Shown one piece after another: positions 25,209-27,578 of a DNA stretch of 64,000 bases. Source of the stretch: Microcoleus sp. bin38.metabat.b11b12b14.051 (lineage in GTDB: Bacteria > Cyanobacteriota > Cyanobacteriia > Cyanobacteriales > Microcoleaceae); assembly GCF_013299165.1 (NCBI RefSeq), contig NZ_JAAFKD010000002.1:1-64000 (forward strand), in the 5' to 3' direction. The position numbers and the translations under genes were made by a program. How positions within the stretch are numbered: the stretch's first letter is position 1; each line of letters opens with the position of its first letter. The notes under the pieces were generated by a model. That model was not told where the DNA came from. It did no database searches and saw only the letters and a list, made by a program, of their open reading frames with translations.

Positions 25209-27578
25209 TTATAATTTCAATAGCAGTTCCAATAACTCAGCTTCCGAAAGTATTTCAATTCCCAAAGATTGAGCTTTTTCCAACTTTGAACCGGCATCTT
25301 CTCCCACAATCACATAATCAGTTTTAGCACTAACAGAATTAGTGACTTTCCCTCCAGCTTGTTGAATCAAATCTTTAGCTTCATCTCGTTTGAGAGTAGG
25401 CAAAGTCCCAGTTAGAACAAAGGTTTTGCCTGCAAATTGTAAATCTTGGTCTCCTAAATTCAGACTTTTTACTTCTGAGTGCAATTGCAATCCCGTAATT
25501 TTCAACCGTGCAATTAAACTTTGATTTGCTGGAACTCTAAACCACTGATAAACCGATTGAGCAATTTCCGGGCCGATGCCATAAACGCCCTCAATTGCAG
25601 CCGCCGATACCGTTGCTAAGTCTTCCACATTTGTGAACCTTTCTGTCAGCAATTGCGCGTTGACTGTGCCGACATGGCGGATTCCTAAGCCGTAAAGTAC
25701 CCGCGAATAAGGTTTATTTTTCGATTGGGCGATCGCACTGACCAACTTTTCTGCTAACTTGTTACCCATGCGTTCCAAACCCATCAACCTGTCAGCAGTC
25801 AAATCGAACAAATCCGCCGCCGAATGCACCAGATTGCTATCAACCATCTGCTGCACCAACTTTTCCCCAACACCGTTAATATCGAGAGCATCCCGGCTGC
25901 AAAAATGAATCAGAGAACCCCTCAAAATCGCCGGACAAGACGTGTTGATGCAGCGAGTCACGGCCTCCCCTTTTTCGCGAACCACAGGCTGGGCGCATTC
26001 GGGACAGCAGTTAGGCATTTGGAAAATTTGAGCATTTTGCGGGCGAAGTTCCGGCAAAACTCGCACAACTTCTGGTATGATTTCCCCAGCTTTTCTGACA
26101 ATCACAGTATCGCCGATGTGGAGGTTGAGTTCGGAAAGTCGATCGCTGTTGTGGAGAGAAGCCCGCGAAACCGTGGTTCCAGCCAACTGCACCGGCTTGA
26201 GTTCCGCTACAGGAGTCAAGGCGCCGGTTCTCCCGACTTGCACGGTGATTGCTTCTACAATTGTAGGGACTTCCGCCGCCGGATACTTAAGGGCGATCGC
26301 CCAACGCGGAAACCTCTGAGTAAAACCCAACTGTCGCTGTAGCAAAACCGAATTTATCTTAACAACAACCCCATCAGTCATATAAGGTAAATTACGCCGT
26401 TCAGTATCCCAATATTCGTAATAATCCCGCACCTCATCCAACGAACAGCAAATTTTGCGATTGGGATTCACCTTAAACCCCATTCGGCGCAAAAATTCCA
26501 ACGATTCCCACTGGGTTTGCTCCTCATTAGCCTCATCTAAATGCAGAGTATAAGCAAAGAAATCCAACCGTCGCTTGTCCACAATTTTAGAATCCAACTG
26601 TCGTAGCGTACCCGCCGCCGCATTGCGAGGATTAGCAAACAATTGTTCCCCCGCTTTTTCCCGCTCGCGATTAATTTCCTCAAACACAGCCAAAGACAAA
26701 AAAGCCTCTCCCCGCACTTCCACCACCGGCGGTGGATTTTCTAAATTCAGCTTGAGAGGAATCGAACGAATAGTCTTGACATTTTGAGTAATATCCTCTC
26801 CCGCAATCCCGTCTCCCCGCGTCGCACCGCGAACTAAAACCCCATTTTCATAGGTTAAAGCTAAAGCAGAACCGTCAATTTTTAACTCACAAACATAGGA
26901 AACCCCCCCCGGCCCCCCCTTGCTAAGGGGGGGAGTAATTTCTGGCTTTTCGTTGTTGCTAATGGGTGAAATTCCATCTTGTCCCCCCCCTTGGTAAGGG
27001 GGGGTTAGGGGGGGTAAAATTCCATCAAGAGCGGGTGAAATTCCATCTTGTTCCCCCCCTTGGCAAGGGGGGGTTAGGGGGGGTGAAATTCCATCTTGTC
27101 CCCCCCCTTGAACGGAGGTGGTTAGGGGGGGTGAAATTCCATCAAGAGCGGGTGAAATTCCATCTTGTTCCCCCCCTTGGCAAGGGGGGGTTAGGGGGGG
27201 TAAAATTCCATCAAGAGCGGGTGAAATTGCATCTTTTTCCCCCCCTTGAACGGAGGTAGTTAAGGGGGGTGCATATCGCCGCCAGCGTTCCTGCCATTTA
27301 GCAAATTCCTCAAGATTAAAAGCATTTTCCAAACTGTAGAGAGGAATATTGTGCTTGACACTAAAAAATTGAGTAGCGGGCTTTTCTCCCACGCGCTGAG
27401 TAGGACTTTCCGCAGTAACTAACTCAGGATAATCGGATTCTAATTCTTGCAACTGGCGATAAAGTCGATCGTACACCTCATCAGCCATAATCGGCGCATC
27501 CAGAATATAATAAGCATAGCTAGCTTCCTGTAGCTGCTGCCTCAACTGTTGAATTTGCTGCTGAATCTCTGCTACCAT
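25209..27578 (-). CDS. ligA: NAD-dependent DNA ligase LigA with a repeat-derived insert
   Basis: A 789-residue ligase that seals nicks in replication and repair using NAD. Order: Ia domain (1-70), nucleotidyl-transferase domain with catalytic Lys233 in ELKIDG and the later RGDG motif, OB fold, four-Cys zinc finger (CCPECAQP ... CINTSCP), helix-hairpin-helix region, and a C-terminal BRCT domain (about 710-789). The family is usually about 670 residues. The excess is a low-complexity block at about residues 103-227, made of [10 protein letters not shown] and DGISPALDG units, directly in front of the catalytic lysine. The corresponding DNA is a chain of CCCCCCTTG...AAGGGGGG palindromes like those between genes elsewhere in the window. 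All catalytic motifs remain, so the enzyme is probably active with the insert looped out. Confidence 0.96.
26898..27272 (-). repeat. In-frame repeat insert within ligA
   Basis: About 375 bp of alternating palindromes (arms CCCCCCTTG and CAAGGGGGG, with GGTTAGGGGGGGT) and the linker GAAATTCCATC. Units are multiples of three so the ligase frame stays open. The same GGGGG-rich palindrome family appears between genes at about 40.64-40.73 kb. Confidence 0.85.

Follow-up and report, generated by a model that had tools for sequence, protein, structure and literature searches.

Protein-forming repeats have mostly been discussed for Rickettsia. In cyanobacteria, small dispersed repeats and MITEs are said, for instance for Nezha and in the 2008 work of Elhai, to be scattered through the genomes. 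The palindromes described below are likewise short and scattered, and here they were seen in frame within core enzymes. For Rickettsia, palindromic elements (RPEs) of 105–146 bp are described that lie within conserved genes without breaking the frame (Ogata et al. 2000, 2002; PMC2229807, PMC10969869), and a guanylate kinase with an RPE insert is reported to be active (PMC2229807, PMC10969869). Judging by a cited title, in-frame palindromic repeats occur in Wolbachia as well. Intragenic REPs with GTAG/CGTC tags form another described system. These are described as occurring singly, in pairs or in clusters within ORFs, the clusters encoding up to 82 amino acids; they are often found in DNA repair genes, including a DNA ligase gene of Opitutus terrae, and a REP occupies about the same site in recB of two Xanthomonas species (PMC3733652).

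The repeats that we analyzed in Microcoleus can be set beside both systems. What they have in common with RPEs is the presence of dispersed palindromes in frame in conserved genes together with intergenic copies; many genomic copies, and in-frame copies in several conserved genes, were found in Microcoleus. The two are likened by behavior, and their dimensions differ: Rickettsia elements measure 105–146 bp, whereas Microcoleus, which is free-living, has units of 48–69 bp in arrays of variable length. Intragenic REPs and the Microcoleus palindromes are both short palindromes within ORFs, with DNA ligase among the hosts. However, the latter are without the GTAG/CGTC tag, and their arrays are longer and vary in length between congeners; the longest array in ThiL covers up to 250 codons, partly given as N in the record. 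In the open-access literature, we recognized no report of the LigA insert or of PPLTPP/SKGGLGG peptides in cyanobacterial enzymes, and found none of the genus-wide pattern (variable arrays, several families, same loops). The Microcoleus repeats add a case to the protein-coding palindromes already described for Rickettsia and as intragenic REPs, this time in a free-living cyanobacterium and as arrays whose length is species-specific.

The palindromic array in ligA

The window is a stretch of 64,000 nucleotides from Microcoleus sp. bin38.metabat.b11b12b14.051 (contig NZ_JAAFKD010000002.1, positions 1 to 64,000). On its minus strand, at 25209..27578, lies a gene whose 789-residue product is, by curated models and motif, the NAD-dependent DNA ligase LigA, predicted to seal nicks. 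It scored 886.4 bits with NF005932 (cut-off 369) and 839 with TIGR00575 (cut-off 444.45), and contains the Pfam domains Ia, adenylation, OB, Zn finger, HhH and BRCT. The nucleotidyl-transfer lysine motif KxDG is present as CELKIDG; the codon of its catalytic Lys233, which aligns with E. coli Lys115, is located at 26880..26882 (minus strand). In comparisons with nine relatives, of which two are insert-free, dN/dS over 500 codons of the ligase part was 0.08–0.12, and by this measure purifying selection acts on it.

A second NAD-dependent ligase, which the first-pass annotation had listed as a finding that would refute its reading, was not found in the genome (7.07 Mb, 99.85% complete). A 440-codon open frame elsewhere (G000:C6:127233-128552; L138:1234-2553) has a weak ATP-dependent DNA ligase domain (33.9 and 31.9 bits, cut-off 26.2), with scores far below the cut-offs of the NCBIfam ligase models; it is followed by Uma2-like and then SbcD-like frames, both named by eye. 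The label 'essential' that LigA received in the first-pass annotation is qualified by this ATP-ligase-like gene, which was seen in 27 of the 29 genomes of the genus set, though the two genomes without it, G010 (contigs ending in the insert) and G015 (87% complete), have an insert-bearing ligA.

The insert occupies residues 103–227 of LigA, i.e., 125 amino acids encoded by 375 nt at 26898..27272 (minus strand), exactly where some 125 extra residues ahead of Lys233 had been noticed in the first-pass annotation. The chain of frame-keeping palindromes that was also claimed there consists of six in-frame units of the CCCCCTT..AAGGGGG type, with 375 being a multiple of three; no strand is assigned to the units themselves. 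Units 1 (27239..27259) and 3 (27100..27121) are diverged, and units 2 (27170..27190), 4 (27053..27073), 5 (26983..27004) and 6 (26913..26933) are exact. The peptide of units 1–5 is PPLTPP(C/Y)QGG or a second 10-residue sequence. Unit 6, which has the opposite orientation and an 11-residue peptide, was judged by eye to be the most alike between species. Tandem periods of 48, 69 and 117 bp were detected inside the insert, and the palindrome centers are of the TTRSYAA type.

In an AlphaFold2 model based on a 56-sequence alignment (mean pLDDT 74.1, pTM 0.52), the insert had pLDDT values of ~26–32 and no secondary structure, and the flanking helix 89–102 and the strand 228–234 bearing Lys233 were kept; the model is also poor at residues 62–85. 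The adenylation core superposed on solved LigA adenylation domains with 2.1–2.6 Å over 222–235 residues. Superpositions of the full-length structure were worse (about 7–20 Å), presumably because the domains are placed differently. On this modeling, the insert should be a proline- and glycine-rich disordered loop by the active site.

The palindrome is abundant. Exact matches to CCCCCTT-N1-8-AAGGGGG were found 228 times in the 7.07-Mb genome, vs none for the reversed pattern used as a control, which rules out chance as the whole explanation of the LigA palindromes. The resemblance to intergenic repeats at 40.64 kb, which had also been pointed out, holds in part. A pair of palindromes at 40654..40706 (no strand; starts 36 bp apart) is indeed intergenic, between frames named by eye as ispG and an S41 peptidase gene, and is related to the LigA units; however, it belongs to another subclass, with TTAAGAA instead of TTRSYAA centers.

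Distribution and reading frame of the insert

We compared 29 genomes of Microcoleus and close kin, including that of the window. An insert of 32 to at least 125 residues is present at the LigA site in 25 of them, three have an empty linker of 10–12 residues, and G003 has a 14-residue linker. The linker is complete on one contig in 22 genomes (19 with an insert, three with 10–12 residues), and contigs stop inside the repeat in six further congeners. The deepest branch of the genus (G006, G014) is insert-bearing; in G025, the insert is mainly another kind of repeat. Outside the genus, 15 of 16 relatives have 6–15 residues at this site, so that the net growth of LigA amounts to ~110–119 residues; the remaining relative, G035, has 52 residues of other sequence. 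Similarly, among 56 additional named loci from outside the genus, 55 have 7–17 residues. The insert is therefore not a general feature of cyanobacterial LigA, and most of the non-genus LigA proteins examined are without it.

The loop also accommodates other sequences. In 47 other cyanobacterial loci, which were top hits or picked for long frames and are not a random sample, 6–71 residues of unrelated sequence were found. Iningainema tapete BLCC-T55 (Scytonemataceae; L082) has its own 41-residue insert made of a CCCC-type palindrome at the same site, apparently of independent origin, and a short SPLAQGGLGE stretch in G045 may be a remnant of the repeat.

A quick LigA tree was built on the part after the insert, and many of its forks are weak. 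The three empty ligA alleles have a near-identical linker and yet stand apart in this tree, and identities along ligA are mosaic, which suggests that ligA alleles were exchanged between species. Because of the weak forks and the mosaic identities, the placing of the insert-free alleles is uncertain.

With regard to the reading frame, 17 of the 19 complete insert-bearing linkers have a length that is a multiple of three. In all 17, the ligA frame is open, vs two of 85 cases for the other five frames (1, 0, 0, 1 and 0 times). These frame statistics make translation of the repeat segment very probable. Exceptions are G011 and G020 (L023, L024), in which the frame was lost in homopolymer runs within the repeat, on long contigs. 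In G020 (M. vaginatus HSN003), the thiL insert (L332) is out of frame too, and the loss in both genes of one genome points to homopolymer assembly error as the likely cause in G011 and G020. It should be noted, however, that in G010 and G021, whose contigs end in the insert, reading from the N-terminal side runs into a stop close to where the contig breaks off, which counts against translation.

Repeat inserts in other enzymes

We surveyed 1,806,056 bases of the genome, which contained 82 palindromes in 40 loci. A locus was called intragenic if it was in frame in an ORF of at least 200 amino acids with at least 40 residues on each side; 12 of the 40 loci, ligA included, fell in frame within such ORFs, one of them (C1:376675) close to the end of its frame. 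The centers of the intragenic loci are TTRSYAA or near it, and the TTAAGAA/TTAAAAA subclass, which includes the pair at 40.64 kb, occurs in none of them. The association with center type (12 of 12 intragenic loci vs 10 of the remaining 28; Fisher p 1e-4) refers to classes that were drawn post hoc. In either subclass, about four of the six frames through a bare palindrome are open, so stop codons within the palindrome are not supported as an explanation for the absence of the TTAAGAA subclass from the intragenic loci.

The same 82 palindromes were searched for REP tags within 12 nt on either strand. GTAG was found next to one and CGTC next to none, with 10% and 8%, respectively, at random places, and an assignment to GTAG/CGTC REPs was thereby ruled out. 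As for mobilization, the genome has ten matches to the Y1 transposase, and a palindrome lay within ~1.5 kb at one of eight such loci examined; thus, no clear link to a RAYT emerged. At eight ThiL junctions viewed by eye, no clear target-site duplication was found.

The hosts of in-frame palindromes besides LigA include UreC, TsaB, ValS, an S9 peptidase, a glycosyltransferase, NACHT/NB-ARC-type proteins and multidomain kinases, with two hosts (WD40 and kinase frames, C12:20057 and C6:122702) named by eye. In relatives, inserts were also detected in AroE (G022), ProS (G026) and an aminotransferase (G010, G022). UreC, ThiL, TsaB and ValS scored above the cut-offs of curated models. The cleanest presence/absence case is ThiL: of 26 complete linkers, 15 are empty (12–18 nt) and 11 hold 120–750 nt, ten of these in frame. 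All 26 complete UreC linkers are in frame; the LigA-type repeat is found in 11, an unrelated palindrome (peptide GQDARST) fills this loop in 13, and two have neither. Since other frames are often open as well (7–20 of 26 for ureC and 0–8 of 10 for thiL), counting open frames is informative only in the case of ligA. In ValS (G000:C3:257522-260509), two palindrome families unrelated to each other are present in frame (SEDFSP...RTEVLTTN and PPLNSPFGKGGQGG). ValS also carries the AGGACT...AGTCCT family, the third after the LigA-type and GQDARST palindromes. Palindromes of the AGGACT...AGTCCT family number 343 in 1.81 Mb; in the window, they form tandem 31-bp and 56-bp arrays, at 63019-63228 and 32205-32311.

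A further case lies in the window itself. A heavy-metal P-type ATPase (35535..38297, minus strand) carries its own in-frame insert, four 60-bp QDACST repeats at 36402-36642 (minus strand), behind the DKTGTLT motif. This family is other than that of LigA and is also found in UreC. Across the genus, the ATPase linker varies from 69 to 465 nt and is in frame in 24 of 26 distinct complete loci; of the two out-of-frame loci, one holds N and one comes from a 74%-complete genome. The view of LigA as an unusual case, taken in the first-pass annotation, is therefore not supported, as UreC, ThiL, TsaB, ValS and the P-type ATPase carry comparable inserts.

Two other repeats were observed in the window. 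Seven-base tandem repeats (MDMNHGAMGMGHGALGMGN...) run in frame in the P-type ATPase at 36944-37031, ahead of its CPC motif, and about nine copies of an 84-bp repeat with 97% matches are located at 54163-54912, with plus-strand open frames of up to 290 codons.

Origin and possible role of the LigA loop

We consider it quite probable that the insert is palindromic repeat DNA in a permissive loop of LigA, filtered by the reading frame and tolerated by an enzyme that is predicted to be active, with no enzymatic role of the loop being needed. An element of the form CCCCC-TTRSYAA-GGGGG would have entered the loop between helix 89–102 and the Lys233 strand no later than in the common ancestor of Microcoleus and close kin; the same site is occupied in 25 of 29 genomes, which would fit a single ancestral entry. 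Insertions and changes that close the frame would have been purged by selection, as the frame statistics suggest. Replication slippage or unequal recombination would then probably have altered the number of units in the different species. Unit similarity was 0.920 within and 0.907 between strains, with 570 of 2000 permutations as good, and because this test for homogenization was negative, slippage or unequal recombination remains unproven. Insert-free alleles would have persisted, probably via the between-species recombination to which the mosaic identities point. The segment, if translated as we infer, would form a proline/glycine-rich disordered loop that LigA tolerates. The same filter may act on several palindrome families and core enzymes, a permissive loop and an open frame being what it needs. 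This agrees with the repeat-driven protein growth that had been suggested at the outset, in that a dispersed palindrome codes within a conserved enzyme and its length varies by species.

It is possible, though unlikely, that the disordered arm by the NAD+ site has been recruited and is under selection because it tunes activity, partner binding or localization. Such a role would be in line with its retention in 25 of the 29 genomes, those of the deepest branch (G006, G014) among them, with the open coding frame in all 17 length-conserving inserts, and with the last unit (a 15-residue peptide), which looks alike by eye in most species. However, the loop ranges from 32 to at least 125 residues, is absent from three congeners, is mainly another repeat kind in G025 and is without predicted structure, and the same repeat is found in unrelated enzymes. 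Much less probable is that the segment is absent from the mature enzyme, the hairpin being skipped by the ribosome or removed from the RNA or protein. The predicted RNA fold of the segment is very stable (-176.3 kcal/mol, z -6.5), two assemblies have lost the frame, and a stop occurs near the contig end in two more. Yet skipped DNA would be free to lose its frame or gain stops, whereas the frame is kept in 17 of 19 ligA, 26 of 26 ureC and 10 of 11 thiL linkers. In addition, the two Rfam matches over 26700-27500 scored far below threshold, and a known RNA family was rejected for this region.

The insert contains C or G homopolymers of seven or eight bases, and two genomes lost the frame in such runs, which might also suggest that slippage there switches LigA on and off. 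The sole NAD-dependent ligase is an unlikely target for such a switch, and the similar frame loss in thiL of G020 looks like assembly error; we regard this as very improbable. Least probable of all is a misassembly of repeats into ligA. In six congeners, contigs do break off within the insert, and in two of these a stop precedes the break; but the insert recurs at the same site with the same flanks across numerous independent assemblies, one of which, G018, is a single contig with an intact frame. Assembly error, a concern raised in the first-pass annotation, is thus rejected as the whole explanation of the insert. The tolerated, frame-filtered repeat in a permissive loop is the reading that we prefer.

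In a broader and rather doubtful extension, several unrelated palindrome families would recolonize the same loops (LigA, UreC, ThiL, P-type ATPase) and provide a fast-evolving disordered layer that cells use. If true, disordered species-specific loops would, for example, tune enzymes or hold them together. On the practical side, repeat loops of this sort fragment assemblies and may disturb gene prediction and sequence alignment, which calls for caution. For several core enzymes, close relatives that differ in whether they have the insert are matched natural pairs, in which repeat entry, growth, and neutrality or gain of use can be followed.
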